Positions 29,732-50,799 of a stretch of 64,000 nucleotides of DNA are shown one piece after another. Numbering within the stretch: position 1 is the first letter of the stretch; each line of letters starts with the position of its first letter. Where the stretch lies: positions 744,001 through 808,000 of the forward strand of contig NZ_JAPQNS010000001.1 of the NCBI RefSeq assembly GCF_028867935.1, given 5' to 3'. This DNA comes from Flavobacterium sp. SUN052 (GTDB lineage Bacteria; Bacteroidota; Bacteroidia; Flavobacteriales; Flavobacteriaceae). Below the pieces are notes generated by a model. The model had not been told where the DNA came from, ran no database searches, and saw only the letters and a program-made list of their open reading frames with translations. Made by a program: the position numbers and the translations under genes.

Positions 29732-29764
29732 GCTTGTTTATGGGTAAGTATTGCCAGCCTTGTA

Positions 29765-29780
29765 GCTGAATACGTGCCAA
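29765..29780 (-). promoter_or_regulatory. Sigma-54 promoter P1 for the EPS initiation/regulator operon
   Basis: Read on the minus strand the sequence is TTGGCACGTATTCAGC, with a perfect -24 box (TTGGCACG) and GC at -12, spaced GG-N10-GC as required by sigma-54. The -12 box ends 34 bases before the glycosyltransferase ATG, giving a leader of about 20 bases. The palindromic activator site centred near 29840 lies about 60 bases further upstream. Confidence 0.8.
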
Positions 29781-29831
29781 ACTCGCAAATGAGCCCTATT
29801 TCGCCTATTTCAACAGTTTAACATAGTTTCG

Positions 29832-29848
29832 TTTCCAAATTCTGGAAA
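29832..29848. promoter_or_regulatory. Activator-site palindrome, P1 copy
   Basis: TTTCCAAATTCTGGAAA is a perfect inverted repeat TTTCCA-N5-TGGAAA, and an additional half site (TTCCA) follows at 29853. It differs from the copy at 50609 at one base in 17. The distance to the -24 box is typical of an enhancer-binding protein site. Confidence 0.7.
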
Positions 29849-29999
29849 TTTATTCCAAAAAGGACAGCAGGGAACAAAAGAAAGTGTTAGGTAACCTGAA
29901 GGTTGAAATCGTAACTGGTGGTCGCAAATGAGAAGATTATTTTTATGCGACTATTAATGTTGGTAGAGTGGCAAGTTGAGCAGGATTGGGGAATTGCTA

Positions 30000-30034
30000 T
30001 TCCGAAAATTGGATAGTTTTCCATAAAATGGAAT
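30000..30034. promoter_or_regulatory. Tandem activator-site palindromes, P2 copies
   Basis: Two copies start 19 bases apart: a degenerate one at 30000-30014 (TTCCGAAAATTGGAT) and a near-perfect one at 30018-30034 (TTTCCATAAAATGGAAT). They lie about 75-95 bases upstream of the sigma-54 promoter P2. Two sites about two helical turns apart suit cooperative binding of an NtrC-type oligomer. Confidence 0.6.
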
Positions 30035-30096
30035 CGCGTCACTGCTATAAAGTGAGTAAGTGATTGTTAAATAGGGTATTAACCGTTTATTGATTA

Positions 30097-30113
30097 TTGG
30101 TTCCGATTTTGCT
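30097..30113 (+). promoter_or_regulatory. Sigma-54 promoter P2 for the FIST-kinase operon
   Basis: TTGGTTCCGATTTTGCT has GG-N10-GC with a full -12 box (TTTTGCT) and TTGG at -24; the CACG part of -24 is replaced by TTCC. The expected transcription start is near 30124, leaving about 33 bases before the FIST ATG. An alternative TTG start codon at 30097 would lie inside the -24 box and is therefore rejected. Confidence 0.65.
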
Positions 30114-30156
30114 GGTTTACACCTTTTGCTTTAACCTGACTTATATAATCGTTTCA

Positions 30157-31296
30157 ATGGTAGCGTCAATTGTTCAGTTTTCAGATAATACCTGGTCTAA
30201 GCACGCAGTTAGTCAATCAGCAGAAGACAAAAATGCACAGCTGGTATTATGCTTCGGGGCAAAAGGAGTTTTACAGCAACCGACGATCTTTGATACTGTT
30301 AAAAAACGATTTCCCAAGTCAGAAATAGCTATGTGTAGCACGGCGGGTGAAATTTATCATGACACGGTGCAGGATGACTCGCTCGTGGCCGTTGCCATAA
30401 CGTTCAGCAGTACCCGAATAAAAACAGCTTCCGTCAATATTCGTGATTTTAACACCAGTTTCGACGCAGCTCAAGGGTTGATCAACAACCTGATAGCCAA
30501 AGACCTGGCCTATGTGCTGGTATTGTCAGATGGCAATCTGGTTAACGGCAGCGAATTGGTAAAAGGGTTAAACACAGGCGATAAAAAAGTATTGGTTACG
30601 GGGGGCCTGGCCGCGGATGCTGCTAATTTTAAATCGACGCTGGTGGGCCTGAATGAACAACCCTCCGAAGGTAAGATTGTGGGTATAGGGTTTTACGGGA
30701 AGAAGTTGGTCGTATCCCATGGGTCACAGGGAGGTTGGGATACATTTGGGTTGGAAAAAGAAATAACCAGCGCCGAGGCCAACGTTTTGTACGAAATTGA
30801 CCATGAGAATGCGTTGGATATTTATAAAAAATATTTGGGACCCGACGCCGAAAATCTACCGGGTTCTGCTTTATTTTTTCCGTTGTCGGTTACTATTCCC
30901 GGCACAACAAAATCAATAGTCCGAACGATTCTGTCGATCGACGAGGAGAAAAAAAGTATGACGTTCGCGGGCGATGTTCCCATTGGTTCTACGGTACGGT
31001 TTATGAAAGCGAATTTTGATAAACTTACCGTTGCAGCGGCTATGGCTGCGCAGGAAACCAGTTCATACAGCGATCTAAAGCCGGATCTAGCCTTGTTGAT
31101 CAGTTGCGTTGGTCGGAAACTGATTTATGGCCCCCGTATCGACGAAGAGGTCGAAGCCGTAAGCGAAACATTAGGTAAGAATGTGCCTTTAATTGGTTTT
31201 TATGCCAACGGAGAAATATCGCCCTTCCGTGATCGTGGCAATTGTCAGTTGCATAATCAAACCATGACTATCACTTCCTTTTATGAACTACCATAA
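30157..31296 (+). CDS. FIST domain sensory protein, 379 aa
   Basis: FIST (F-box and intracellular signal transduction) domains are predicted to bind small ligands such as amino acids and often feed histidine kinases. The N-terminal part shows the FIST_N pattern (LVLCFGAKGVL, KSEIAMCSTAGEIYHD, VLVLSDGNLVNGSELVKGLN, VLVTGGLAADAANF) and the C-terminal part the FIST_C pattern (YEIDHENALDIYKKYLG, LLISCVGRKLIYGPRIDEEVEAV, VPLIGFYANGEISP). ATG 30157 is chosen as start because upstream TTG lies in the promoter. It is cytoplasmic and overlaps the following hybrid kinase gene by 14 bases, so the two are made together; it is probably the input module of that kinase. Confidence 0.9.
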   Translation: MVASIVQFSDNTWSKHAVSQSAEDKNAQLVLCFGAKGVLQQPTIFDTVKKRFPKSEIAMCSTAGEIYHDTVQDDSLVAVAITFSSTRIKTASVNIRDFNTSFDAAQGLINNLIAKDLAYVLVLSDGNLVNGSELVKGLNTGDKKVLVTGGLAADAANFKSTLVGLNEQPSEGKIVGIGFYGKKLVVSHGSQGGWDTFGLEKEITSAEANVLYEIDHENALDIYKKYLGPDAENLPGSALFFPLSVTIPGTTKSIVRTILSIDEEKKSMTFAGDVPIGSTVRFMKANFDKLTVAAAMAAQETSSYSDLKPDLALLISCVGRKLIYGPRIDEEVEAVSETLGKNVPLIGFYANGEISPFRDRGNCQLHNQTMTITSFYELP

Positions 31297-34200
31297 ATTA
31301 CTGTCAAAACAGGTAGCCAGATATTTACCCGAAGAGCTAAGGGATAACCCTGCAATGGACAAATTTCTGGAAACGATCAGTGAGACGTACAGGGTACTTG
31401 ACCGAGGGAAGGAATTAGCCGAACGAGCGTTTACGATCAGTGAAGAAGAATATGTTGACCTGAATAATAGGCTTAAACATGAAGTTGACGTAAAGAAATT
31501 ATCGATTGAAAAGTTAAAGGAAGCCGTAAAAACAATATCGGGCGTTGACGAGCAAAATGATTCAGATGATTTACTGGCAATTGCCCGTCTTCTGAATCAA
31601 CAGGTGAATAAACGGAAAAATGCGGAAGAGGTATTTGTCTCGTTTATTACTAATATGAACAGTGGGGTATTGCTTGAAGACGAGAATCGGAAAATAGTAT
31701 TTACCAATCAGGTTTTTTGTGATTTTTTTTCGATCCCTGTCTCACCAGATTTATTAAGAGGGGTAGATTGTAGTAACACCGCTGAGGAAATAAAAGGGTT
31801 GTTTGAAAATTCGGAATTATTTGTAAAAGATATTCACTCAATTCTTGAAAAGCGTGAACTAGTTACTGGTGATGTACTTAAGTTAGTGAATGGTACTATT
31901 TTTCAACGAGACTATATCCCGATTTATATCGATGATAAATACAAAGGGCACCTATGGAGCTATACAGATATTACAGAACGTAAAAAAAGTCAGGATGCCA
32001 TTATTCAGAGCGAGTTGAAAAACCGCCTGATTATGAATGCGGCTTTGGATGCTATTATTACAATTGATAAAGCTGGCTTCATAACCTTCTGGAATCCGCA
32101 GGCAGAACTGATATTTGGATGGAAAGCAGAGGAGGTGCTTGGTCGTAAACTATCTGATCTGATTATCCCAGATGTGCACCGGCTTTCTCATGAACGCGGC
32201 ATGAAACAATATGCCAGCACTGGGAACGGACCTGCCTTGGGTAAACAAATGGAGTTGCCGGCAATTAACCGGGATGGCAAACTATTTCCGATTGAATTAT
32301 ATATTATTCCCGTTAAACAAGGTGAAGACGAATTCTTTTGCTCGTTTATTCGGGATATTTCCGAACGGAAAAAGAATGAATCCGAACTGGAAAAACTATC
32401 CCTGGTTGCTAGTGCCAATAAAAACGGTGTTGTGTTTGTTGGCATGGATGGCAAAATTTTCTGGTCTAATGAAGGATTCAGTAAACAAACGGGTTATTCT
32501 ACGAGTGAAATTATTGGCAAAACCCCAATTGAGCTGTGTAGGGGACCCTTTTCAGATCGGGAAAGTCTGAAAACCATGGTCACCTCCTTTGAAACGGGCA
32601 GGCCATTTGATATTGAAGGTATCCACTACAAAAAAGATGGTACCTGGTTCTGGGGTCGGACCAATGGACAGCCCGTAGTTGATAAGCAAGGGAATATTAC
32701 CCATTTTTTTTCGCTAATCGAAGATATATCAGCGGAAAAGGTAACACAGAAAAAATTAAAAGAATACGAAGAGCGCTTACGAATGGCTTTGGCCAATGTT
32801 GGTGATAATTATTGGGAACATGATTTTCGGACGGGAAAAACTTATTTTTCAAATCCAGGCAATAATTTATTAGGTTTTCAATTAGAAGAGTTTACAAACG
32901 TAGCTAGTTTGTGGTGGAAACAGATTCACCCTGATGATAAAAAAATATTAGAAATAAATGATAAGAATTACAAATCTGGAATAATTCATCACCACCATCA
33001 GGAATACCGAATGATTCACAGTGATGGCACTATTCATTGGGTGCTTGATCGGGGTGTAGTTACCGAAAAAGATGATGATGGGAAACCGCTAAAAATAATT
33101 GGAACGCACATTGATATTACCCGGCAAAAAGCCCTGGAGATGGAGCTTACACTGGCTAAAGAAATGGCGGAAGAATCGACCAGGACGAAGGAGATGTTTC
33201 TGGCTAATATGAGCCATGAAATACGAACGCCGATGAACGCCATTATGGGCATGGCAAATCAATTAACCAAAACGCCCCTGAATACAGATCAGCAGTTTTA
33301 TTTGAGTGCTATTCAATCGGCCACGGACAATTTATTAATTATTATCAATGATATTCTGGATCTGTCAAAAATTGAAGCTGGCAAATTGTCTCTTGAAAAA
33401 ATAGGCTTCGATCCGAAATTAGTTGTAGGCCGATCAATGCAGGTGATGATGCACAAAGCTGAAGAAAAAGGACTTTTGTTTACAAATTCGTTTTGTGATA
33501 CTTTATTGTCACCGGTATTGATTGGAGATCCGTACCGCCTAAATCAGATTTTGCTTAATCTGATTTCAAACGCCATAAAGTTTACGCAGAAAGGTCAGGT
33601 AGATATTAGTTGCCGGGTTGTTCAGGATTCGGAGGGATTTCAGACGATTGAAGCAACCGTTAGTGATACCGGAATAGGGATGGACGATTCGTTCAGTAAA
33701 AATTTGTTTCAAAAATTTAAGCAGGAAGACGAATCGGTTACCCGTCGGTTTGGTGGTACGGGGCTTGGTTTGAGTATCAGTAAAAATTTAGTGGAACTGA
33801 TGGGTGGCACCATGAAAGTGCACAGTAAAAAAGGAATCGGAACATCCATCTCATTTACCATACCGTTTCGGAAAGGCGATCAGAGCAATTTACCCGTCAA
33901 AGAAATCGATAGCGTCAATACCGATATTATCTCGGGAAAGCGAATTTTGATGGCTGACGATAATGAAATGAATCGCCTTGTTGCGTCAACTATATTGATC
34001 AATTACGGCGCTTTTGTCGACGAGGCTCAGACTGGACGTGAAGCTGTAGAAAAGCTACAAAACCAACCTTATGACCTTGTTCTGATGGACATACAAATGC
34101 CGGAAATGGATGGGGTAGAAGCTACCCGGAAAATACGAGCGGAGATAAGTGATCAGGTACCTGTTATAGCCTTGACCGCGCTCGCTGTTAAAGGAGATCG

Positions 34201-34666
34201 TAAGAAATTTATTGCCGCAGGCATGAGTGATTATTTGTCGAAGCCATTTGAAGAGAGCCAGTTACTCGCTGTTGTTTCGAAGTGGCTAAGTCAATTAGAA
34301 ACTCCTGATCAAAACATAACCACTGAAGCCATTCCCTTATTTGACTTGTCGAAACTGGAAAGCATTGCCCGAGGCAACGATGCGTTTGTCAGTAAAATGA
34401 TTGATTTGTTTGTGGTGTACGGGCCCGAATCGGTTCAGGAAATAAAAGAGGCTTATGTGGCAGGCGACTTCGAAAAAATCAGGAAAACGGCACACCGCAT
34501 TAAGCCATCGATTGATAATCTGGGGATCACCTCCTTAACTGAGGACATCAGAACTATTGAAACAAAAGCCGAAGTCTATCAGACATCAACACAACTGGAA
34601 AAATTGATTTCCAAGCTGGAGACCGTATTGACAAAGGTTGTCAATGAACTGAAAGCTAGATCGTGA
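31283..34666 (+). CDS. Hybrid histidine kinase with several PAS domains, REC and Hpt, 1127 aa
   Basis: After a coiled coil (about residues 20-110) come four PAS or PAC segments (about 115-235, 245-360, 370-490, 495-625). H645 in ANMSHEIRTPMN is the autophosphorylation site. The ATPase has NQILLNLISNAIKF, DTGIGMD and GGTGLGLSI. The receiver has D936 (LVLMDIQMP) and the C-terminal Hpt H1071 (TAHRIKPSIDNLG). No membrane segment is visible. The first PAS (FTNQVFCDFFSIPVSPDLL) closely resembles that of the kinase at 23541, so the two are paralogs and may converge on the same regulator. It overlaps the FIST gene by 14 bases. Base composition is clearly more AT-rich than that of the surrounding EPS genes. 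Confidence 0.93.
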   Translation: MNYHKLLSKQVARYLPEELRDNPAMDKFLETISETYRVLDRGKELAERAFTISEEEYVDLNNRLKHEVDVKKLSIEKLKEAVKTISGVDEQNDSDDLLAIARLLNQQVNKRKNAEEVFVSFITNMNSGVLLEDENRKIVFTNQVFCDFFSIPVSPDLLRGVDCSNTAEEIKGLFENSELFVKDIHSILEKRELVTGDVLKLVNGTIFQRDYIPIYIDDKYKGHLWSYTDITERKKSQDAIIQSELKNRLIMNAALDAIITIDKAGFITFWNPQAELIFGWKAEEVLGRKLSDLIIPDVHRLSHERGMKQYASTGNGPALGKQMELPAINRDGKLFPIELYIIPVKQGEDEFFCSFIRDISERKKNESELEKLSLVASANKNGVVFVGMDGKIFWSNEGFSKQTGYSTSEIIGKTPIELCRGPFSDRESLKTMVTSFETGRPFDIEGIHYKKDGTWFWGRTNGQPVVDKQGNITHFFSLIEDISAEKVTQKKLKEYEERLRMALANVGDNYWEHDFRTGKTYFSNPGNNLLGFQLEEFTNVASLWWKQIHPDDKKILEINDKNYKSGIIHHHHQEYRMIHSDGTIHWVLDRGVVTEKDDDGKPLKIIGTHIDITRQKALEMELTLAKEMAEESTRTKEMFLANMSHEIRTPMNAIMGMANQLTKTPLNTDQQFYLSAIQSATDNLLIIINDILDLSKIEAGKLSLEKIGFDPKLVVGRSMQVMMHKAEEKGLLFTNSFCDTLLSPVLIGDPYRLNQILLNLISNAIKFTQKGQVDISCRVVQDSEGFQTIEATVSDTGIGMDDSFSKNLFQKFKQEDESVTRRFGGTGLGLSISKNLVELMGGTMKVHSKKGIGTSISFTIPFRKGDQSNLPVKEIDSVNTDIISGKRILMADDNEMNRLVASTILINYGAFVDEAQTGREAVEKLQNQPYDLVLMDIQMPEMDGVEATRKIRAEISDQVPVIALTALAVKGDRKKFIAAGMSDYLSKPFEESQLLAVVSKWLSQLETPDQNITTEAIPLFDLSKLESIARGNDAFVSKMIDLFVVYGPESVQEIKEAYVAGDFEKIRKTAHRIKPSIDNLGITSLTEDIRTIETKAEVYQTSTQLEKLISKLETVLTKVVNELKARS

Positions 34667-34826
34667 AGTAATTAATTTTTCGATGGAGATAACAGGCTGC
34701 CTCAACTTTGACAATGCTGCTCGATGAATTACAAATTCGATCTAACAAGCGTATTCAGGATTTCCTCAGTTAATACCTAAAATGTTTATAGTGAGACGTT
34801 TGTAAGGGAATTTGTGCTGATAAGTT

Positions 34827-34862
34827 ACCGCTTGGACCCACAACGTTGTGTGTCCAAGCGGT
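34827..34862. repeat. Long intergenic hairpin
   Basis: ACCGCTTGGAC pairs with GTCCAAGCGGT around an inner stem CACAA/TTGTG, with one C/T mismatch between the two stems and a minimal CG apex. The hairpin lies between the convergent FIST-linked kinase and CocE genes, 33 bases from the latter. It lacks a T-run on either side, so it may be a structural terminator or a mobile REP-like element. Confidence 0.5.
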
Positions 34863-34894
34863 GCGGTCTAATCAGAGCCTGTCACTCGCGAACA

Positions 34895-36658: not shown

Positions 36659-36746
36659 TTTATTTAAGTTTTTGTGAATTGTGAATCTCTTTTTACCTGT
36701 TGAGTGCTGCCAGGAACTGATGCGATTAGCAGCCCGATCAGTGAGA

Positions 36747-36754
36747 CAAAGGTA
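36747..36754 (-). promoter_or_regulatory. Bacteroidota-type -7 box upstream of the CocE gene
   Basis: On the minus strand TACCTTTG matches TAnnTTTG exactly. A partial -33 (TTTA) lies about 22 bases upstream. The predicted leader is about 80 bases. This suggests that the hydrolase has its own promoter rather than depending only on the AraC gene transcript. Confidence 0.4.
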
Positions 36755-36805
36755 TTGGGAGGTCATCCCGGAGAGATAAACCATTCAAACCAAAAACTAT
36801 AAATT

Positions 36806-37684: not shown

Positions 37685-37716
37685 AGGTCGTAAAAGTACA
37701 GAAATCAATACAAACT

Positions 37717-40860: not shown

Positions 40861-40888
40861 AATTGTTATCGGTTGATGTGCCCCCGCA

Positions 40889-43342
40889 CTAACTCAATCG
40901 TTGAATGCGGTTAAAAATCCGACTAAGAGTCAGCGACAAATCCTGATTCAGAAGGGGCATATAATCCGACTTCGGATACTGTTTTTGCAAGGTGTCGAAA
41001 AGGCCGAGGTAGCTCTGGGTCAGGTGGGTGATGGTAGCCGAGTCGAGCTCTTGTTTCCGGCGCAGAATCTCTTCGGGTGGGGCGTATAAAAAAATGTTAA
41101 GTCGGGGTTTCAATAACAGGCTATACAACCGTCCTGCCAGACCCGAAGGTAGTTGTAGGTTGCTCCGGCGACTGTCGTTGATGAAGTCGAAATAATAGCG
41201 GTCGTACAGCACGATGTAGCCACGCCACACATATTTGATCTGTATGTAGAACTGCCCCAGCAGGTAATCGGCAAAGTAATACCCGAAGCGCAACAGCGAC
41301 GAAACCCCGCTCTGGTTGGTGCCTTGCCGGGGAAGTCGGTCAGCCGATCGTTGTTCGGCTGCTTTCCGCCCGTATTTCCAGGCGCTGAGAATGGGCAGCA
41401 GTGACGGGCGATGGCGGAGCACAACTACCCGTTGCCGTAGTCGCTTTTCAATTTCGTACTTCGTCTGCTCAATCACAGTCGACTTGCCCGCCCCATCGAC
41501 TCCGCTGAATGTGACAATCATGCCCCGCCGGAACCCAAATGACCGCAGCGTATCCCATCCATAAGCCAATGTGTTGATCATTCCCCGCCAGCCTCTGTTT
41601 TGGGGTAATTTGCGAACGGTTTTGGTAAGCTCTTTGGAGGTTGACCCTGGGGCCTCGGCTCCAAACAAAGCCAGGTAACGTGCAGGGACAGGGGCGTTGT
41701 TGAGGCCGTAAAAAAGGCGTACGTAAGTTTTGTCGGTTTCGAAAGTTGGCACTTTCAGGCCGTGGGAAGCCAGGGTTGCCTGTTCCCAAACGGACTTGGC
41801 AGGCATAAACTCCAACTGCTTCCGTTTGAAGGCCCAAATCAGATCGAGGTGGAGAAATGTACCATCATGACACTGGAAATGAAGCTGTTTCATAAAGCTG
41901 CGGTGCTCTACAACCACCTGATTTATGCAGGGATGCTGCTGGAGATACCGAGTCAATTGATTCGCTACAGACTGTGGCATACACAAATCCAGGTCCGACG
42001 CTTCGGACAAGGCATCCAACTGGGTAGGCATAAATTTGAGAGCCGCATACGGTTGCTGATGCAGCCATACCGACACATCGTGCAGAACCAACTGACGGTC
42101 GGTAGGGCCGTTTTTCTGACTCAGCCAATACGTGAGCGCATCGTTCCAGGTTGTCAGTAGCCAGCTTACCTGTTGGTGCCATTCGGCCTGCCGACTGTAT
42201 ACCGATAGGTAGTAGGTTACGGTATGAACCAGGTAAAGCATCTCGGCCAGATCGGTATCTACCCGATACGACTCACTAAACAATTGCCACTCCGGTTGGC
42301 TCAAGGTGGCGTCAACATCGCGCCGGACAGCGGTAAAGCCCTGATTACCCAAAAGGGTGTTTGACTGGTACAAGAAATGGAATAGATCGTATAAGCCCGG
42401 TAACTCGGCCCGGTACAATTCCCAATCGATGACAACGAGTTTGTTCTCGTTTAACATCATGTTCCAGGGGGTGAAATCACCGTGGGCTGCTGCTACCGAC
42501 ACCAGCATTTGTTCGTTCAAACTAGTCATCAGATGGTCAAGTTTGTCGAGCAGGCTGACCGGTATGCGGGGGTCGTTGGCCCGCCGAACCTGGATAAGCG
42601 TATCTTTTGCTTCCTGCCAAAAGGTCGCCTGACGTAGCGGCTTATTTCGCCAGTTGCGGCTAAGTAGTTCGCTCAGGGCACCCGTAGGTAAATCGGCGAG
42701 TTGATTTACTGGTCGGGTCGTGGTTGCCCCCATATCCTGTTGAACCAGAACACTCTGAGCTAACGACTGCTGCTTATAAGCGTTGAGTCTGGGCACATAA
42801 ATTTGCTCAAACGGTTGGCGCTGATTGCGTCGCAGGGCAACCGCTTCGGTTTGCAGGTTGGCCGTAGCAGCGGGCATAAGGGCGATTTTGGCAAAGAAAC
42901 TCTGGTTAGCATGGGTGCTGTACCAAAGCACCAGTTTACGGTTGGGCCCTGCTGTACCCGTAAACAACGCCCACCGGCTTAGCTGAGTGCGTTTCAGCAG
43001 TCGATAACCAGCTTCGGTGGTGTAAAACGTAAGCCGGTCCTGAGCTGCCCAACGCCCTAGTTTTAACCGAAAAAGAAGCCGCACCAGCCAAACGAATGCC
43101 TTTGCTTTACGGGTGCCGCCATGATAAAACCGGAGAAAGTCGGGTTGTTCGGCCCTGACTGGCCAGAGCCAGCGTATACTGCCATCAGCGTTGCGAATCA
43201 GCGAACAGGAGATAGGGCAAGTGTGGGTTAGCGACGGTTTATCTGTGATCGGAAGATCAATCGTTGCCAGCCCCGTCTGCAAGCGTTGAACGTCTGATGA
43301 GTAGTCGTAGTGGGTCATGCCAACATGTATTACCAGTTCCAT
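40889..43342 (-). CDS. Three-domain fusion: APH-like kinase, nucleotidyltransferase-like and thymidylate-kinase-like domains, 817 aa
   Basis: The N-terminal half ends in a phosphotransferase (APH/choline kinase) fold: H287-GDFTPWN294 is the catalytic HxDxxxxN motif, with D289 as catalytic base, and VVIDW at 303-307 gives the metal aspartate D306. Residues ~430-560 resemble a nucleotidyltransferase, with S449-DLDL. The C-terminus is a P-loop kinase of thymidylate-kinase type: G614-VDGAGKST622, then YDRYYFDFINDSRR as a DRY/DRH-like lid region. I know of no single named family with this order. A sigma-54 promoter lies only 17 bases upstream of this ATG, so the ATG at 43318 (MTHYDYSSDV) is a credible alternative. 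It heads the operon with the acyltransferase and two glycosyltransferases, so a role in preparing an activated EPS building block is inferred. Confidence 0.8.
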   Translation of the reverse strand: MELVIHVGMTHYDYSSDVQRLQTGLATIDLPITDKPSLTHTCPISCSLIRNADGSIRWLWPVRAEQPDFLRFYHGGTRKAKAFVWLVRLLFRLKLGRWAAQDRLTFYTTEAGYRLLKRTQLSRWALFTGTAGPNRKLVLWYSTHANQSFFAKIALMPAATANLQTEAVALRRNQRQPFEQIYVPRLNAYKQQSLAQSVLVQQDMGATTTRPVNQLADLPTGALSELLSRNWRNKPLRQATFWQEAKDTLIQVRRANDPRIPVSLLDKLDHLMTSLNEQMLVSVAAAHGDFTPWNMMLNENKLVVIDWELYRAELPGLYDLFHFLYQSNTLLGNQGFTAVRRDVDATLSQPEWQLFSESYRVDTDLAEMLYLVHTVTYYLSVYSRQAEWHQQVSWLLTTWNDALTYWLSQKNGPTDRQLVLHDVSVWLHQQPYAALKFMPTQLDALSEASDLDLCMPQSVANQLTRYLQQHPCINQVVVEHRSFMKQLHFQCHDGTFLHLDLIWAFKRKQLEFMPAKSVWEQATLASHGLKVPTFETDKTYVRLFYGLNNAPVPARYLALFGAEAPGSTSKELTKTVRKLPQNRGWRGMINTLAYGWDTLRSFGFRRGMIVTFSGVDGAGKSTVIEQTKYEIEKRLRQRVVVLRHRPSLLPILSAWKYGRKAAEQRSADRLPRQGTNQSGVSSLLRFGYYFADYLLGQFYIQIKYVWRGYIVLYDRYYFDFINDSRRSNLQLPSGLAGRLYSLLLKPRLNIFLYAPPEEILRRKQELDSATITHLTQSYLGLFDTLQKQYPKSDYMPLLNQDLSLTLSRIFNRIQRLS

Positions 43343-43358
43343 GCCAAGGCCCGGAAAA

Positions 43359-43375
43359 GGCGAAATGAATGCCTG
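43359..43375 (-). promoter_or_regulatory. Sigma-54 promoter P3 upstream of the fusion-gene operon
   Basis: On the minus strand CAGGCATTCATTTCGCC has GG-N10-GC, GGCA at -24 and TTTCGC at -12, a fair sigma-54 match. It lies in the 101-base gap between the wzy-like gene and the fusion gene. The predicted start near 43348 gives a very short leader to ATG 43342 or about 30 bases to ATG 43318. Confidence 0.6.
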
Positions 43376-43418
43376 GAGGCTGTTTTTGGGTGGATGCAGT
43401 TCCGCCGGTGGGAAAGTG

Positions 43419-43435
43419 GTTCCAGAAATTGGAAA
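43419..43435. promoter_or_regulatory. Activator-site palindrome, P3 copy
   Basis: GTTCCAGAAATTGGAAA matches TTTCCA-N5-TGGAAA with one change at the outermost left base. It is centred about 54 bases upstream of the -24 box of P3 and just beyond the stop codon side of the wzy-like gene. Confidence 0.6.
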
Positions 43436-43443
43436 GCCGTCTG

Positions 43444-44751
43444 TTATGCGTTTCGGAGATCGGGGCGACGGCGGAAGAGAAACAGCTTCTCGCGGGGAGT
43501 GAGCAGCGGATTGATCGACAGGCTGATGTAGAAAATCAGAAGCTGGTAAAACAGAATACCGTAGTTGGTTTCGCCGAAGATGCCAAACTCGGTGAATGAG
43601 TTAATCATAATGGGAATGAGCACTCCAACGCAAATCAGGCTTTTTTCGCGCACCGTAACCTGCAAAAATCCCCGGATGGTGAACACAAGCTGGAAGAGGA
43701 CAATGGTGAACCCAACAAAACCCAGGTTCATCAGCACCTGAATAAACGTGTTGTGCGTCATTTTGGCCGCGTAGGTGAAAATGTGTTCGCCCTGAAAATA
43801 ATCGGTGGTGGCAATACGCATAAACCCAAAGCCAAAGAACGGGGCTTCGGGTAGACCTTCTGTGAGGAGGGCTGTCCAGAACGGGAGCCGCCCGGTCATA
43901 CTCATCACTTCGTCGAGCCCACCGCCATGTTCTTTAATCAGCAGTTTCTGTACCGCCAAGGGCACGGCCAAGGCGGCCCCGGCATACATCAACAGTTTCA
44001 GCCGGGTATTCGACGATTGTCGGATGTGGAAAAAGGCGATCAGCAGACAACCAATGGTCGACGAGCGGGAGCCCGTCAGTACAACAGCCCACATCAGCAG
44101 GCCAATTTTGATAAACGTCCAGACAAGCTGATGCTTTCGGTAGATATTGAAAATAAAACACGACACGCCCACCGCGCACAACATGCCTAACTCATTGGGA
44201 TTCATGATGAAACCGCCCAGTCGCGCTTCTTCGCCACCGTGGGTAAGCCGGTAAAATGTATCGGGATCAACGTACATGCCCACCAGAAAAATGCTGATCA
44301 TCATCATGACCGCATCGCCAATAACCTGGTACATTTTAAGGGTACTCCCCGGAAAATAGTGGTCGATCAGAATGAAACAGGCGATGAAATAATAGCAGAA
44401 GACCAGCCCTTCCAGATCCATAAACCACTGGAGACCAGAATAGCCCGGATCGGTAGACCAGATTACGGATAGCAAGCCCAAAAACAAGTAAGCCACGTAC
44501 AAAAACGGCGACAGGCTGTGGTTCCAGCCAAATGACGCTACGGCTCCCCGGTTGATGATCGTCCGGTACAAATACCAGATCGAACCCGTCATGGCAATGC
44601 GGCTAATCACTTTAATGACCCGCGTAATAGAGATGTTGTTGCTCCAGGTGAAAAACCCGCCCAGTTTGATAAACAGGATGATGGTGAGCCAGAAACCAAC
44701 CTGTTTCAGAAAACGGGTATGATCCGTTTTAATGGTCAGTTGGCGTGCCAT
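43444..44751 (-). CDS. Wzy/O-antigen-ligase family membrane protein, 435 aa
   Basis: The sequence has about ten to twelve hydrophobic segments with one long extracytoplasmic region (MSMTGRLPFWTALLTEGLPEAPFFGFGFMRIATTDYF...HTFIQVLMNLGFVG, about residues 270-355), the layout of the O-antigen polymerase/ligase (Wzy_C/WaaL) family; the R and H residues of the large periplasmic loop are the ones expected to matter in this family. In EPS systems this enzyme polymerises repeat units at the periplasmic face. The gene overlaps the preceding GT4 gene by 16 bases. It ends the operon that begins at the receiver-only gene. Confidence 0.8.
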   Translation of the reverse strand: MARQLTIKTDHTRFLKQVGFWLTIILFIKLGGFFTWSNNISITRVIKVISRIAMTGSIWYLYRTIINRGAVASFGWNHSLSPFLYVAYLFLGLLSVIWSTDPGYSGLQWFMDLEGLVFCYYFIACFILIDHYFPGSTLKMYQVIGDAVMMMISIFLVGMYVDPDTFYRLTHGGEEARLGGFIMNPNELGMLCAVGVSCFIFNIYRKHQLVWTFIKIGLLMWAVVLTGSRSSTIGCLLIAFFHIRQSSNTRLKLLMYAGAALAVPLAVQKLLIKEHGGGLDEVMSMTGRLPFWTALLTEGLPEAPFFGFGFMRIATTDYFQGEHIFTYAAKMTHNTFIQVLMNLGFVGFTIVLFQLVFTIRGFLQVTVREKSLICVGVLIPIMINSFTEFGIFGETNYGILFYQLLIFYISLSINPLLTPREKLFLFRRRPDLRNA

Positions 44752-45854
44752 ACCTGTTGATACAACTCGTGGAACTGCTTCAGCTGACGTGACCAGTTGA
44801 AGTGTTTATCGACCATCGTTCGGGCGTTTTTGCCCAGTTGAGCCAGTTTTCCCGTCTGCCACTGCTCATGCAAAACGGATAACCCCTCCGCTACCTGGGG
44901 TGCAGTTCCCTTAGCGATCACGTAGCCCGCATCGAACGACCGGATGGCATCACCCACGTTGGTGGCTTCGGACACCAGGCAGGGTAACCCCAAAGAGGCT
45001 GCTTCGAGCACCGAAACCGGGAGGCCTTCGTAGCGCGAGGAATGTACAAAAATGCTGCACAGCCCTAGAAGCTGAAGTTTTTCGTCGCCAAACCGGCTGC
45101 CCCAAAACGTAACCCGATGCTGTATGCCTCGCTGATCGACCATCTTCTTCAGGAGCTGCCGATGGGGTCCATCTCCAATCAGCCAAAGGCGCGCCGTGGG
45201 AACCGTTTTGTGAAACTGGGCAAAGCCTTCAACCAACCAGTCTAAACCCTTATGGTCAATGTCGAGCCGACCGCAGAACCCGATGATAAACGCGTTGTCA
45301 ATAGGTTCGGTGGATAGGTCTGGTGCGGAAAATCCGTACGGAATCATCACCGATTTCTGATTAGGAAAAATGGCTTGTAAGCCGTCGATTTCGCTTTTAC
45401 CCAATACATGAACTGCTCGCGCTCCCGAAAGGATTTTTTGCTCAAAAAGCTTAAAATAGACTTGTTTGGCCAGCCGGTTTCGCTGCAAGGCATGGCTGTT
45501 ATAATTGCCGTGGGGCGTTACCAGGTAGGGGATTTTGTGTTGCTGCAAAAAGCGGGCAGCGGCATAGAAACGAGGAATAAATCCACCGTGAAACTGCACA
45601 ACGGCTTTCTCTTTCCGCGCCAGAATGGCCTGTTTCCAGCTTGCTCCAACCCAAAACGGATTCCGACTCGCTCCGTACAGACGAGTGGTATAGGTTCGTT
45701 CGGGGTAGTCGTGGATTTGGTTGGCCGAAAAGCCCCAAACCTCTACCGCATGACCGGCCTGCTGCTGTTGCGTAGCCAATTCATGCACCACTTTATTGAC
45801 GCCGTTCATTCGGGCCGGATTGGCCTTACCGAGAACAAGGTGAATGATTTCCAT
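44736..45854 (-). CDS. Glycosyltransferase family 4, 372 aa
   Basis: GT-B fold: N-terminal MNGVNKVVHELATQQQQAGHAVEVWGF as the acceptor-side start; YLVTPHGNY; C-terminal donor domain with IIGFCGRLDIDHKGLDWLVEGF and SIFVHSSRYEGLPVSVLEAASLGLPCLVSEATNVGD. Likely extends the EPS repeat unit on the cytoplasmic side. It overlaps the flippase gene by 49 bases and the wzy-like gene by 16 bases, which shows tight translational coupling. Confidence 0.9.
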   Translation of the reverse strand: MEIIHLVLGKANPARMNGVNKVVHELATQQQQAGHAVEVWGFSANQIHDYPERTYTTRLYGASRNPFWVGASWKQAILARKEKAVVQFHGGFIPRFYAAARFLQQHKIPYLVTPHGNYNSHALQRNRLAKQVYFKLFEQKILSGARAVHVLGKSEIDGLQAIFPNQKSVMIPYGFSAPDLSTEPIDNAFIIGFCGRLDIDHKGLDWLVEGFAQFHKTVPTARLWLIGDGPHRQLLKKMVDQRGIQHRVTFWGSRFGDEKLQLLGLCSIFVHSSRYEGLPVSVLEAASLGLPCLVSEATNVGDAIRSFDAGYVIAKGTAPQVAEGLSVLHEQWQTGKLAQLGKNARTMVDKHFNWSRQLKQFHELYQQVWHAN

Positions 45855-47098
45855 GTGAATAAGCCGTTACGATGTAAAATCAAAAGCCAGTAACTGATTA
45901 AGATTGCCTGTGTAAAAAAGAGCCCGGTCAGTACACCACTAAGGCCGTAGCGCGTGATGAGCCAAGAAGCCGTTGCCAGGCTGAACCCGGTTGCCAGTGC
46001 GTAGCCCGCGAAATAATGTCTGTTGAGCAGCCGCACGCGGAGAATAATTCGGATCGGGAATCCACTAAGTACCAGGACGTACACCGCCGACAAGCCATAC
46101 ATCACGTACCCAAAGGCGCGGTAGTCGCTGCCACCGGCGAGGGTCAGTATCGGTTCGGCGGCAAGGGTTAGTAGGATCAAAATCGGTAGCAAGCCAATCA
46201 GACTTTTGAGGAGTACTGAACGTAGATAGGCCATTAACTTTTTGGGGGTCTGAGCCAACTGAGCTGCCCGGGGCACCACATAGCTTTCGAGAGCCTGAAG
46301 CCCCACATTCAGCAAACCGAATATGTATTGGGCTAAACGCAACGCACCCAGTGCTGCGGCCCCTAACGACCAGCCTGCGGCCACAATGAAGAAATTGCCC
46401 GCCAGCCATTGTGTTATTGCCGATAGAAGCATCCAGCCGCCCTGATCCCGGTGCTTCTGCCAGACCAGTTGGCAATGTGCCCACCGGAACGCACCGGGTT
46501 TTAACCAGATTATTCCCAGTATTACAGAGGGCAAAAACGTGAGCCCGATTATCCATAAAGCCGTGAGTAGCGACAGGTTTTCGGTGAGTTGAAAAGCCAG
46601 AAGTAACACCAGCTGACTACCATTTGTTAGGCCGTCTATGAGCATGGCCTGACCGGCTCGCTGTTGCACTAACAGCGTTTTGCGCAGAAAATCCTGGAAT
46701 AAAAATAAACCCGTTGCTAGTGCAGCCGGAACCAGAAATTGGCTCGTAAACGGGATGAATCCTGTCGGTAATAGGGCATAGATAGCTGCACAAACGGATA
46801 GAAGAACGGTGAGTCCAACTGCCTGAAGCCAGAAAAGCCCGTTTGTATATGGTTTTTGAACCACTACCCATAAACCCGGCCACGTAACCTGGTAGATGCC
46901 GCTACCCACCGCTTGCTGAACCGACAGGAGAAACAATTGAGCGAGAATAACCGCCGAAAACTGACCGTATTCGGCAAGCCCAAGCCCCCTTGCCAGTAAT
47001 AGGTTGGTGGCAAAAGCAGAGCCGCTAATCACGATCTGATCGGCCAGCACCAGCCCTTTCTGCGACACCATTAATTGACGATCTTGTTGACGGTTCAT
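45806..47098 (-). CDS. Wzx-type flippase/polysaccharide exporter, 430 aa
   Basis: About twelve transmembrane segments and no long soluble region, with the start QKGLVLADQIVISGSAFATNLLLARGLGLAEYGQF that is typical of polysaccharide synthesis membrane proteins (the PST/MATE-like branch of the MOP superfamily). Wzx proteins flip undecaprenyl-linked repeat units to the periplasm. The gene overlaps the Wzc-like gene by four bases and the following GT4 gene by 49 bases. Confidence 0.87.
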   Translation of the reverse strand: MNRQQDRQLMVSQKGLVLADQIVISGSAFATNLLLARGLGLAEYGQFSAVILAQLFLLSVQQAVGSGIYQVTWPGLWVVVQKPYTNGLFWLQAVGLTVLLSVCAAIYALLPTGFIPFTSQFLVPAALATGLFLFQDFLRKTLLVQQRAGQAMLIDGLTNGSQLVLLLAFQLTENLSLLTALWIIGLTFLPSVILGIIWLKPGAFRWAHCQLVWQKHRDQGGWMLLSAITQWLAGNFFIVAAGWSLGAAALGALRLAQYIFGLLNVGLQALESYVVPRAAQLAQTPKKLMAYLRSVLLKSLIGLLPILILLTLAAEPILTLAGGSDYRAFGYVMYGLSAVYVLVLSGFPIRIILRVRLLNRHYFAGYALATGFSLATASWLITRYGLSGVLTGLFFTQAILISYWLLILHRNGLFTWKSFTLFSVRPIRPE

Positions 47099-49290
47099 AC
47101 GCTGGCGAGGGCTAGTTTAGATTTCATAGTACGTTGGCGAATGAACCTGATCAGAGGTTTGAAAAGCTCGCTAATCAGCGAAGGGGTGTATCCGGCCCGG
47201 TTTAGCACGAACTGCATGAGCGGCAGGTTCAGGTTGTCGCGAAGGAGGTCGGCTTCCAGAATCCGGTTCTGTTTTGTTCGGCGACTGTCGAGCAGCATCA
47301 GATTCAGCGTAGCCGAGGCCATCATCATTACGGCTGTTGGCTCGGTGGCCACGGGCGAATTCTTAATGATCACCACATCGAAGCGGTTGCGCCAGTCGGT
47401 TATTAGTTGCTGCCACACCGAAGGCCGTTCCCAGTAGGCGTCAACCGACTGGGGGGTTATGTAGGTAACATCGTCTGTATTTTCCTGGTCGGTTAGGGTG
47501 CCATCTGCATCAATAACAAGCACTGTTTTGCCGAGGTTGAGTACGGCATTGGCCAGCCCGTTCGTCAGGGTTCGTTTGCCTTCCCGTTTGTCGAATGACG
47601 AAACGGTTACCACTGCACCCGGTAGCAGCCACTGTTTAAGGTCCATGTGCAATGCCCACTGCCGGAAAAATGCGCGTTGCTGCACCGGTTTAGTAAAATA
47701 GGGCACGGTGCCAGCCACTGCCGTTTCCGACGTTTTTTGAATGTTAACCTCATTATTGACCCTTGCTTTCATGAAATGAATACCATAGATCACCACAATG
47801 CTGATCAGCAAACTCAGAAAACCGGCCAGTACCTTTATGAGCGTTGGGTTGGGCGATACGGGTGTACGAGCCACTTTTCCTTCAGTAATGACCCGGTGAA
47901 ACGAGATGGTAGCCGCCCTGGCAATGTCGGCTTCGGTGCGTTTTTGATGCAGAAACCGGTATATCTGTTCGTCGAGGCTGAAGTTGCGCTCCAGCACCGT
48001 CATGGTTTTTTCTTTGGTAGGAAGTCCAATAAACTCAGCCTCGGCCACGCGAATGGTTTTGTCGAGGTCTTTGTGCTTGATTTTCAGGTTGGTGAGCGTA
48101 TTGTTGATGCTCTCTTTCATGTACTCGGACAAATCGCTCATTTGCGTGTCCAACAGCTTCACTTTCTCATGCTCAGGCGTATAGCGGGTCAGCAGTTCGC
48201 GCCGGTCGCCCTGTAACTGCTTCATTTTCTTGACAATTTCCGTTGAAAGAAGGTCGTTGAAGGCTTCGAAATTGGGCGCCGATTTAAGGAAATCGGGATT
48301 CTGGCGGACGTACCGATTCAGGCTGTCGATGGCCAGTACGTTCATGTGAACGCTGGACAGCTGTTTTTGTAGGTCGGCAATCTGGCGAAGATCGGTTTCG
48401 GTTTCCTGCCGGATGTTGATGATGTTTTTGGCGTTCCGATATCCTTCAATGGCCTTTTCGCTGGCTGTAAGCCGACCCTGGTAGTCGGTCAATTGTTTGT
48501 TCAGAAAGTCAACGGTGGTATCGGCCGTGCGGAACCGGTCTTCCACACCATCAGCGATATAGGCCGCAGCCACACTATTCACCACATCGGCGGCTTTTTG
48601 GGGCACCGAGCTTCGGTAACTAATTCGCAGCACCGGAATGTCCTTGTCGACGGCCATAACGTCGAGATCGCCAACAATCGATTCAACGACGCTTTCCTGC
48701 GTGCGGACAACAAATTCGTATTGATCATTGATAACCAGCCGATGGCGTTTTTTTAATAGCGCTTCGTTGCGGCTAAAAAATAGAGTGCCCCCGTCCAGGT
48801 TCACGATCCGGTTAAGTTCGCACTCAACGGCTTTGCCGCCGGGTAAAGTGATGGTCAGGAGTGAGTCGCGCCGAATGGCCAACTTAAACGTTTGATTGTA
48901 CCAGCCTGGATTGGTAAAAGCGGCCGTAATTCGAATAGGCGACTGTCCATACAGATCGGTCTTGCGGATTTTGCCGATTCGGTAAATGGTAACGGCCAAG
49001 TCCAGGTTTGAGAACGCTTTGCTTAGTAGTACGTTGGATTTTAACAGTTCAACCTCAGCCAGAATTTTGTTGGTGTTCGCAAACACATCGAAATCTTTGT
49101 AGAGGTTGGCGCTCGGAGCTCCTTCATTGGCGTCGGCCAGTTTAATTTTTGCCATGCTATCGTACATAGGCGTAGCGTAGCGCAGGTACCGGCCTGCCAA
49201 AAACAGGGCAATGCTCATCACCAGAGCAATTAGCGGTAAGCCTCTTACGAACGGCCCCAGAATCCCCAGCGTTTTCGATAACTCAGACAT
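47095..49290 (-). CDS. Wzc/Wzz-type polysaccharide co-polymerase with degenerate BY-kinase domain
   Basis: Layout: an N-terminal transmembrane helix (GLPLIALVMSIALFLAGRYL), a Wzz periplasmic region with a long coiled coil (about residues 270-440), the GNVR-like segment, a second transmembrane helix (VLAGFLSLLISIVVIYGIHF) near residue 505 and a cytoplasmic P-loop domain from about 560. In active bacterial tyrosine kinases the Walker A motif ends GK(S/T) and Walker B is a DxxP type. Here Walker A reads EGKR at 570-573 and Walker B reads VVIIKNSP with K643 where the aspartate is expected. The C-terminus has no tyrosine cluster. The domain therefore looks inactive as a kinase. Operon: receiver-only protein, Wza, this gene, Wzx, GT4, Wzy. 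Confidence 0.87.
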   Translation of the reverse strand: MSELSKTLGILGPFVRGLPLIALVMSIALFLAGRYLRYATPMYDSMAKIKLADANEGAPSANLYKDFDVFANTNKILAEVELLKSNVLLSKAFSNLDLAVTIYRIGKIRKTDLYGQSPIRITAAFTNPGWYNQTFKLAIRRDSLLTITLPGGKAVECELNRIVNLDGGTLFFSRNEALLKKRHRLVINDQYEFVVRTQESVVESIVGDLDVMAVDKDIPVLRISYRSSVPQKAADVVNSVAAAYIADGVEDRFRTADTTVDFLNKQLTDYQGRLTASEKAIEGYRNAKNIINIRQETETDLRQIADLQKQLSSVHMNVLAIDSLNRYVRQNPDFLKSAPNFEAFNDLLSTEIVKKMKQLQGDRRELLTRYTPEHEKVKLLDTQMSDLSEYMKESINNTLTNLKIKHKDLDKTIRVAEAEFIGLPTKEKTMTVLERNFSLDEQIYRFLHQKRTEADIARAATISFHRVITEGKVARTPVSPNPTLIKVLAGFLSLLISIVVIYGIHFMKARVNNEVNIQKTSETAVAGTVPYFTKPVQQRAFFRQWALHMDLKQWLLPGAVVTVSSFDKREGKRTLTNGLANAVLNLGKTVLVIDADGTLTDQENTDDVTYITPQSVDAYWERPSVWQQLITDWRNRFDVVIIKNSPVATEPTAVMMMASATLNLMLLDSRRTKQNRILEADLLRDNLNLPLMQFVLNRAGYTPSLISELFKPLIRFIRQRTMKSKLALASV

Positions 49291-49299
49291 GCCCGATGA

Positions 49300-50052
49300 T
49301 CAGATAAAAAACTTGACTAAAACCAGAATGGTCGTGATAGCGCTGGCCACGGGTAGCACACTGGGCCCGGCTCGCTTGTCCCACAGCTTAGCCTTTTTGG
49401 CGGGTACATACACCACATCGCCGGGTAGAATCTGGATATTACGGGTGGCAAACTGGTCCATACGCGTCAGGTCAATGCTGATGGTGTGCGGCTGATTGTC
49501 AATAGTGCGAATCACCTGAATGGCCTGACGGTCTGCGTACAGATCAAAATCACCCGCCCGCCCCAGCAATTCAACCAGAGAGTTGGACTCCTTTTCGAGC
49601 AGGAACTTGCCAGGGTTTTTCAACTCACCCAGTACGGTCACCTCTCGGTTCAGCACTTTCACGTCGATAATCGGATCAACTACCCACTTTTTAAACTCGG
49701 TCAGCAGTTGTTGCCGCGCTTGCAGGAGGGTCAAACCAACCAGCTTAACTTTTCCTATTTTCGGGATGGGTACTTCGCCATTGGGGTCAACCATCACCCA
49801 TTTGCCATACACTTCGTTGGCGCTATAAATGCTGTACAGCGAGCCCACGCTCAGGTCGTCGTGGTTCCAGACGCTAATGCTGATTTTGTCGTCTTTACGA
49901 ATCGTGTACTGGGTGTTTTCCTGCCCGAGAAATGTTGAGTCGATTTGTGTAGAGACTGAGCTAGGCCGAAAGAGGTTCTGCGTCGCACAGCCCGACAGCC
50001 AGCACGTGAAACTGGTTAGTAACAGGCTGATCAATAATGATTTGATTTGCAT
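49300..50052 (-). CDS. Wza-type polysaccharide export lipoprotein, 250 aa
   Basis: A lipobox (WLSGC, C22) shows outer-membrane lipoprotein sorting. The poly-export domain (YTIRKDDKISISVWNHDDLSV and VDPNGEVPIPKIGKVKLVGLTLLQA) is followed by an SLBB-type block (TVLGELKNPGKFLLEKESNSLVELLGRAG). A short hydrophobic segment near the end (LPVASAITTILVLVKFF) replaces the long C-terminal helix that forms the outer-membrane pore in E. coli Wza. It forms the export channel with the Wzc-type protein, whose gene starts nine bases after this gene. The TAATG overlap with the upstream receiver gene points to one operon. Confidence 0.92.
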   Translation of the reverse strand: MQIKSLLISLLLTSFTCWLSGCATQNLFRPSSVSTQIDSTFLGQENTQYTIRKDDKISISVWNHDDLSVGSLYSIYSANEVYGKWVMVDPNGEVPIPKIGKVKLVGLTLLQARQQLLTEFKKWVVDPIIDVKVLNREVTVLGELKNPGKFLLEKESNSLVELLGRAGDFDLYADRQAIQVIRTIDNQPHTISIDLTRMDQFATRNIQILPGDVVYVPAKKAKLWDKRAGPSVLPVASAITTILVLVKFFI

Positions 50053-50495
50053 TATGCCGCCGTAAGGAATGAGAGGAATTTTTGCAATTTGCCTTGCGGC
50101 CGTTGTTGCAGCAGGGAGATAACACCCTGAATTTTTTTCAGAACGGCCTCGATTTTATCCAGGTCATTCTCCCCCTTGATGATGTAATCGAATGCACCGT
50201 ATTTCAGAGCGTTCACGGCTACCTGCACATCGTCCTGCCCCGAAATAATCACCAGATAGATGTTTGGGTTGAATCGCTTGATTTTTCGCAGCACATCCAA
50301 GCCGTCGAGTGGTTCCATCCGGTAATCCAGAAGAATGATGTCTGGCTGTTCGATCAGTTGGTTCAGGCAGTCTTGGCCATCGCTGAACAAAGTGATGTTG
50401 CCGTAACCCAGATTAAGGATATGTTGCTCGTAGAGACTCCGGCAAAATGGGTCGTCGTCGACAATGAAAATGGATAATTCGTCCTTGGCTTTCAT
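50052..50495 (-). CDS. Receiver-only response regulator, 147 aa
   Basis: The protein is one CheY-like receiver: acidic DDD at residues 13-15, D57 as the phospho-acceptor (IILLDYRMEP), and IISGQDDVQVAV in the place of the usual threonine/serine switch loop. The ~20 residue tail (LLQQRPQGKLQKFLSFLTAA) is not a known output domain. Its sequence is closest in pattern to the receiver of the sigma-54 regulator at 26038. It is the first gene of the EPS export operon, with a TAATG overlap to the wza-like gene. It may accept phosphate from the Hpt domains of the two hybrid kinases, either as a phosphate sink or as an activator acting on the export machinery. Confidence 0.9.
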   Translation of the reverse strand: MKAKDELSIFIVDDDPFCRSLYEQHILNLGYGNITLFSDGQDCLNQLIEQPDIILLDYRMEPLDGLDVLRKIKRFNPNIYLVIISGQDDVQVAVNALKYGAFDYIIKGENDLDKIEAVLKKIQGVISLLQQRPQGKLQKFLSFLTAA

Positions 50496-50521
50496 AAACT
50501 AGTTGTTTGGCTACCAACTAC

Positions 50522-50536
50522 TCTAATTCTATGCCA
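50522..50536 (-). promoter_or_regulatory. Weak sigma-54-like element P4 for the EPS export operon
   Basis: On the minus strand TGGCATAGAATTAGA has an intact -24 TGGCA, but the -12 box reads TAGA instead of TTGC. It lies 27 bases upstream of the receiver gene start, and a perfect palindrome lies 75-90 bases further upstream. The palindrome is stronger evidence than the promoter itself. Confidence 0.35.
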
Positions 50537-50608
50537 TTGACTTTGTTTGTTGATAATCAGTTGATTGTATGCTGAGGGCGACGCTTTTTATCTATGTGCG
50601 GGAATCTC

Positions 50609-50625
50609 TTTCCAAAATCTGGAAA
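50609..50625. promoter_or_regulatory. Activator-site palindrome, EPS export operon copy
   Basis: TTTCCAAAATCTGGAAA is a perfect TTTCCA-N5-TGGAAA repeat, differing from the P1 copy by one base in the spacer. It lies about 115 bases upstream of the receiver gene start. Confidence 0.65.
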
Positions 50626-50680: not shown

Positions 50681-50799
50681 TTGCTGACGCTTGTGGGCTT
50701 CGACTCCGCTCAGCCTGACGGTTAACCTGGGTGCAATTTCCTATATTGAGTCAACTGTCAAGTCAGGCTGAGCGGAGTCGAAGCCCTTCGCGTCAGCAA
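50681..50799. repeat. Long near-perfect inverted repeat
   Basis: The arms are 50681-50719 and 50762-50799, about 38-39 bases each, complementary except for a short central mismatch (four bases in the left arm against three in the right), with a 42-base loop. It lies between divergent genes, not after a gene, so it is not a standard terminator. The motif CTTCGACTCCGCTCAG is common in intergenic repeats of Bacteroidota, so a mobile repeat is a possible origin. Confidence 0.7.

Follow-up and report, generated by a model that had tools for sequence, protein, structure and literature searches.

Background

Classical sigma-54 activators, NtrC among them, combine a receiver, an AAA+ domain and a C-terminal helix-turn-helix (HTH), and act from palindromic sites upstream of -24/-12 promoters. 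The regulator considered here, encoded at 26038-27402, appears to share that layout with them; its site and its targets differ. As far as the accessible part of its description goes, the closest system in design is PrsK/PrsR of the PEP-CTERM system, which has sigma-54 boxes and is described for Proteobacteria only (Haft et al. 2006, PMC1569441). Like the present locus, it has an NtrC-type response regulator and a kinase, usually near exopolysaccharide (EPS) genes, and a 17-nt motif, sometimes repeated, followed by a spacer of about 63 nt and then a -24/-12 motif; its motif 1 ends in TTTACA and its targets are PEP-CTERM genes (PMC1569441). Unlike PrsR, the site here is TTTCCA-N5-TGGAAA, and the targets are genes of EPS synthesis and export together with a FIST kinase. 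On the PrsR model TIGR02915 the regulator scores 362.9 bits, below the cut-off of 502.6, and on the NtrC model TIGR01818 388.4 bits, below that of 558.6.

Sigma-54 control of EPS has been reported in other phyla (PMC3162934, PMC4641369, both in the portions available). In one of them, Desulfovibrio vulgaris, the sigma-54 response regulators DVU0110 and DVUA0057 have been assigned to EPS and biofilm operons; no word beginning with TTTCC was found in the main text of that paper (PMC4641369). In Flavobacterium psychrophilum, -24/-12 promoters of sigma-54 (SM4) have been mapped and envelope-related genes are concerned: the text at hand gives chaperones, gliding and exported proteins as targets, and activators without assigned targets (PMC9723704). 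Within the accessible parts of that account and of a second one on sigma-54 in Bacteroidota (PMC12316311), a site of the TTTCCA-N5-TGGAAA type is not described. Finally, Myxococcus EpsW is, according to the available text, a receiver-only protein of an EPS pathway, as the receiver encoded at 50052 in our locus would be; EpsW acts post-translationally on an initiating enzyme (PMC12802240). No description of the regulon was found among literature titles and abstract openings, subscription papers being largely outside reach. We regard it as a new example of a familiar type of regulon, whose most novel feature is a third element locked to the promoter.

The locus and its four transcription units

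The window, that is, the whole stretch of 64 kb that was analysed, belongs to a genome of 8.1 Mb (G000) and contains the following genes of interest:

23541-25997, minus strand: hybrid histidine kinase (PAS, HisKA, HATPase, receiver and Hpt; Pfam), adjoining the regulator
26038-27402, minus strand: NtrC-type regulator of 454 aa (by Pfam a receiver and a sigma-54 interaction AAA+ domain, the latter with GAFTGA; at the C-terminus a putative, divergent HTH)
27424-28515, minus strand: WecA-like initiating sugar-phosphate transferase, below the curated WecA cut-off
28520-29731, minus strand: glycosyltransferase of the DUF1972 type, which opens the regulator unit
30157-31296, plus strand: FIST-domain sensor protein, likely start 30157
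31283-34666, plus strand: hybrid histidine kinase carrying PAS domains, a receiver and an Hpt domain (family match)
40889-43318, minus strand: APH-like/thymidylate-kinase-like protein, probable start placed from the conserved promoter box
43444-44751, minus strand: Wzy/O-antigen-ligase-type polymerase, export unit
47095-49290, minus strand: Wzz/Wzc-type chain-length protein, export unit
49300-50052, minus strand: Wza-type polysaccharide export protein, export unit
50052-50495, minus strand: single-domain response regulator heading the export unit

The FIST protein resembles the NosP model weakly and falls short of that model's cut-off. Further glycosyltransferases are carried by the APH-like unit, and the export unit would also include a flippase-like membrane protein, read without any family match.

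The regulator matches PF00158 at 233 bits and its translation keeps GAFTGA intact; the C-terminal match to HTH_8 is sub-threshold (E 0.09). Its structure model was weak overall (mean pLDDT 61, pTM 0.34), and only the C-terminal helices were used from it: those predicted at residues 409-423, 428-435 and 439-447, with pLDDT of 82 to 87 over residues 411-450, fit an HTH. In the Spirosoma clade, a homolog of the adjoining kinase stands after the regulator in 11 of the 12 loci, the window included, and this kinase is likely the partner of the regulator. The genome has one RpoN (a single PF04552 match) and nine strong matches to sigma-54 activators, counting the 26038 regulator.

Palindromes and promoters in the window

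The first-pass annotation had pointed out four near-identical palindromes and a degenerate copy near 30000, each said to lie upstream of an EPS or signalling unit. All four are present where it placed them, the degenerate copy corresponds to 29999-30015, and the four sites are all intergenic and precede such units:

29832-29848, no strand: palindrome without mismatch to TTTCCA-N5-TGGAAA, upstream of the unit glycosyltransferase (DUF1972)-WecA-like enzyme-regulator; predicted enhancer
29999-30015, no strand: partner of the 30018 site at 19 bp, a degenerate palindrome with 3 mismatches
30018-30034, no strand: palindrome with 1 mismatch; predicted enhancer of the FIST-hybrid kinase unit
43399-43415, no strand: partner palindrome, 3 mismatches, 20 bp from the 43419 site
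43419-43435, no strand: palindrome with 1 mismatch; predicted enhancer of the APH-like unit
50589-50605, no strand: degenerate partner palindrome, 4 mismatches, 20 bp from the 50609 site
50609-50625, no strand: palindrome without mismatch; predicted enhancer of the receiver-Wza-Wzz export unit

Three of the four sites thus have a partner palindrome (3 to 4 mismatches, at 19 to 20 bp); none was found at 19 to 21 bp from the 29832 site. Downstream of each site lies a -24-type box, whose distance is given throughout as the number of bases between the palindrome centre and TGG:

29765-29779, minus strand: -24/-12-type promoter TGGCACGTATTCAGC of the DUF1972 glycosyltransferase unit, 60 bases from the centre of the 29832 palindrome
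30098-30113, plus strand: -24/-12-type promoter TGGTTCCGATTTTGCT ahead of the FIST unit, with 71 bases to the centre of the 30018 palindrome
43332-43346, minus strand: conserved -24/-12-type promoter TGGCATGGAACTGGT of the APH-like unit, 80 bases from the centre of the 43419 palindrome
50522-50536, minus strand: -24-type promoter TGGCATAGAATTAGA with relaxed -12, of the export unit, 80 bases from the centre of the 50609 palindrome

The -12 GC is present in the glycosyltransferase and FIST promoters, and relaxed or absent in those of the export unit (the RR promoter) and the APH-like unit. The GG-N10-GC elements announced by the annotation are found at 29779-29765 (minus strand) and 30098-30113 (plus strand). 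A third one, proposed within 43359-43375, does exist as a pattern, but it is not common to the aligned relatives, which share the box at 43346-43332 (minus strand) instead. As for the TGGCA box at 50522-50536, it is present, and at the same distance in relatives, but it is not merely a partial element: it is a conserved form with a relaxed -12.

Because the conserved box of the APH-like unit overlaps the listed start codon at 43342, the true start, as read from the sequence, is probably 43318. In the APH-like units of five other loci (L070, L081, L195, L199 and L207), 27 to 28 bp lead from the T of the -24 box to the ATG, and the same spacing probably holds in the window (43318-43346); the transcript of the unit would therefore be almost leaderless. 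The stretch that separates the export enhancer from the kinase gene at 50989 holds, at positions 50695-50786, a perfect inverted repeat with arms of 25 nt and a spacer of 42 nt (GGGCTTCGACTCCGCTCAGCCTGAC), which looks like a dispersed extragenic repeat or a terminator.

Distribution in the genome

Within the window, 10 matches with at most two mismatches are found where 4.4 are expected, a weak enrichment that 2 of 100 shuffles reach. In the whole genome there are 38 sites with at most one mismatch, versus 9 for the pattern read backward. The locus is enriched, 4 of the 38 sites falling in a window that makes up 0.8% of the genome (binomial P = 2.3e-4), but elsewhere the palindrome stays at background: beyond the window there are 34 sites, 29 in coding sequence and 5 between genes, and all of them lack a partner palindrome at 19 to 21 bp. 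A TGGYA box is in range of five outside sites, all coding, so that none of the 34 is both intergenic and provided with a box. The same test is passed by three of the four window sites; the FIST promoter fails it, its box reading TGGTT, and is left out of the TGGYA counts. The composite pattern is matched by 5 palindromes of this genome, 3 in the window and 2 elsewhere in coding sequence. A genome-wide regulon is accordingly rejected for this genome, and we consider the regulon to be local to this locus.

The bare palindrome was rejected as a marker. Of 296 genomes sampled from the order under which G000 is placed, 176 have a perfect copy, small genomes among them, and so do 16 of the 17 genomes behind the analysed loci; one of these copy sets (G332) comprises seven perfect copies of identical sequence, several near contig ends, and is repeat-like. 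Only the geometry of palindrome and promoter is informative.

Conservation in relatives

In a set of 39 genomes listed as related to G000, the regulator's best match reaches only 58% identity, and for that reason the choice of relatives was re-centred on G320. Identity to named Spirosoma and Fibrivirga is 81 to 84%. The group label of the G000 assembly may be wrong, the regulator being closest to these two genera. The genomes listed under its genus (2.4 to 5.7 Mb) or its order (down to 0.3 to 0.6 Mb) are unlike Spirosoma relatives. In the family, the seven genomes with an ortholog of the DUF1972 glycosyltransferase at 80% or above all have the regulator as well; the other 21 regulator-bearing genomes are without such an ortholog.

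As to conservation in related strains, on which the annotation had made its case depend, the Spirosoma clade was covered with 12 genomes, G000 among them; in 9, strict sites (at most one mismatch) precede the orthologous targets. The remaining three (G337, G373 and G464) have no such site before these targets, though in G464, as in G413, looser versions can be seen upstream of the receiver gene. All nine receiver-type promoters of the clade that have a strict site show a distance to the box of 80 or 81 bases. The APH-like unit has a distance of 80 in G000, G413 and Fibrivirga, and of 60 in G488.

Statistics across Bacteroidota

We analysed 107 regulator loci, four named loci being replaced by longer pieces of the same genomes; in the 80 loci from named genomes, the regulator is 58 to 84% identical in the best segment. 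When all inverted 5-mers with spacers of 0 to 20 were ranked in about 400 bp upstream of the 107 orthologs, TTCCA-N5-TGGAA came first (24 of 107), the best inverted repeat in one shuffle of the same sequences reaching 5. The full palindrome with at most one mismatch is found in the 400 bp upstream of 29 of the 107 orthologs, versus none of 30 sigma-54 activators of other kinds, of which 8 belong to this genome and 22 to relatives, and 55 of the 107 have an intergenic strict site somewhere in the analysed locus. Perfect sites number 18 in 87 ortholog loci; across the 60 rearrangements of the half-site, the real order counted in, the mean is 0.67 and the next best reaches 3. Sites around the 107 orthologs are intergenic in 93 of 117 cases, and in 29 of 30 cases when perfect, while a crude ORF call makes 10% of the bases in these loci intergenic and 90% coding. 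A partner palindrome with at most four mismatches stands at 19 or 20 bp from 45 of the 93 intergenic sites.

In a first profile of boxes, the peaks at 91-92 and 104 were partly due to the -12 element itself and to coding starts, so the range was narrowed and the box was scored. A scored -24/-12-like box is then in range of 53 of the 93 intergenic sites; among 5913 random intergenic positions, rated by the identical score, 335 have one. The promoters had been inspected before that score was fixed. The distances of the 54 scored promoters (38 loci) cluster at 59-62, 71-73, 79-82 and 88-92 bases, and the -12 C is often missing. Since the score is post hoc and related loci are not independent, the periodicity is given for the subset outside the Spirosoma clade (37 promoters, 30 loci): the Rayleigh p for 10 bp, the best of five periods tried, is about 5e-11, and it is 6.5e-10 at 10.5. 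Such phasing over 59 to 92 bases suggests enhancer looping rather than direct contact.

Outside the window, once repeated first genes were removed, there were 56 enhancer-promoter pairs, with an ORF found for 52. Receiver domains are matched by 28 of the 52 products, two glycosyltransferase models by 4 each, and FIST, bacterial sugar transferase and DUF4402 by 3 each, besides others; by our reading of the list, short receiver-like proteins are the commonest target (24 of 52). The module also precedes small proteins beginning with MKN- that have a probable signal sequence (L063:14388-14909, L071:5330-5854 and L095:13728-14246). These are probably the three DUF4402 matches, and they may be exported partners of EPS.

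A third element

The spacer between palindrome and box contains the word TGAWWWTCA in 19 of the 54 promoters, versus a shuffled mean of 0.36. Of the 37 promoters from outside the Spirosoma clade, 13 have it. In the window it is represented by one copy:

50551-50559, no strand: third element TGATAATCA, standing 23 bp ahead of the export unit's -24 box

If any three middle bases are allowed, 15 of 19 occurrences start exactly 23 bp before TGG, and 2 at 33. The word resembles part of an IHF site, judging by sequence. With WATCARNNNNTTR, which we take to be the IHF consensus, 10 of the 54 spacers match in forward and 19 in reverse orientation, for a shuffled mean of 0.45. However, IHF is not supported as the binder of the third element, because the genome has a single match to the HU/IHF family (PF00216).

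It is possible, though on balance rather doubtful, that these features add up to a three-part enhancer used for EPS throughout the phylum. Such an enhancer would comprise paired palindromes, a phased -24 with a relaxed -12, and TGAWWWTCA 23 bp before it, bound by an architectural or co-regulatory protein other than classical IHF; the specificity of the activator would be switched by one residue of the recognition helix (Lys or Asn versus Arg).

Which protein binds the palindromes?

We are confident, short of certainty, that the palindromes are enhancers (upstream activating sequences) of the NtrC-type sigma-54 activator encoded at 26038-27402. Through them, one activator would very probably switch on the EPS cluster, here and in relatives across the phylum. 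Of the original proposal of a sigma-54 EPS regulon, phased -24 boxes, paired sites, conserved targets and the top-ranking inverted repeat speak for the core; what had to be revised is the position of the APH promoter, which lies elsewhere, and the extent of the regulon, which is local. Binding by this regulator and the use of RpoN are what we infer from the sequence data.

A count over genomes agrees only moderately, and crudely, with the idea that the palindrome goes with the regulator: coding and intergenic matches pooled, the composite pattern is found 57 times in 28 genomes with the regulator and 194 times in 172 genomes without it (2.04 versus 1.13 per genome, p = 0.0035), the backward control showing no difference. 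The sites could be enhancers of another of the eight other full-length activators, the adjacent regulator controlling something else; we think this unlikely. The genome does offer nine strong candidates, adjacency of a regulator and its sites is no proof, and 78 of the 107 orthologs are without a strict site upstream of their own gene. Yet the palindrome is absent upstream of all 30 other activators, this genome's eight included, and is the top inverted repeat upstream of the orthologs of the 26038 regulator. The predicted recognition helix gives a further hint: intergenic sites occur in none of the 22 loci, mostly from Pontibacter, in which it reads STIYR, versus 55 of the 85 with Lys or Asn at the same position. 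We rejected this swap as proof of the binder, however, because it amounts to only 2 to 3 independent changes, and a phylogeny-aware test was not significant.

Less likely still is that an activator or repressor unrelated to sigma-54 binds the palindrome, TGGYA then belonging to that system or to another promoter type. The missing -12 GC of the export and APH promoters would suit such a scenario, as would a third palindromic element close to the promoter, but the phased boxes suggest looping, and the site is linked to a sigma-54 activator whose GAFTGA is intact. That the palindromes are chance matches or a functionless dispersed repeat is hardly credible, chiefly because of the cross-species footprints, to which intergenic bias, phasing and pairing are added, even though the window count at two mismatches is weakly above chance, the sites elsewhere in the genome are mostly coding and the bare palindrome is common in other genomes.

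Proposed mechanism and significance

With the 26038 regulator as activator, the phosphorylated protein would bind the palindromes and form its AAA+ ring there. The bound regulator would then loop to the RpoN-RNA polymerase and open the promoters of four units: receiver-Wza-Wzz export, APH-like, FIST-hybrid kinase, and the regulator's own unit, to which the WecA-like initiating enzyme belongs. As the regulator would control itself and a kinase would lie inside the regulon, positive feedback would result.

The analysis thus provides a candidate activator, a DNA site and a defined promoter geometry for the control of EPS in Bacteroidota. The rule formed by the site, its pairing at 19 to 20 bp and its phasing at 60, 72 or 80 bases can be scanned for in any genome of the phylum, and it predicts which EPS clusters would respond together.
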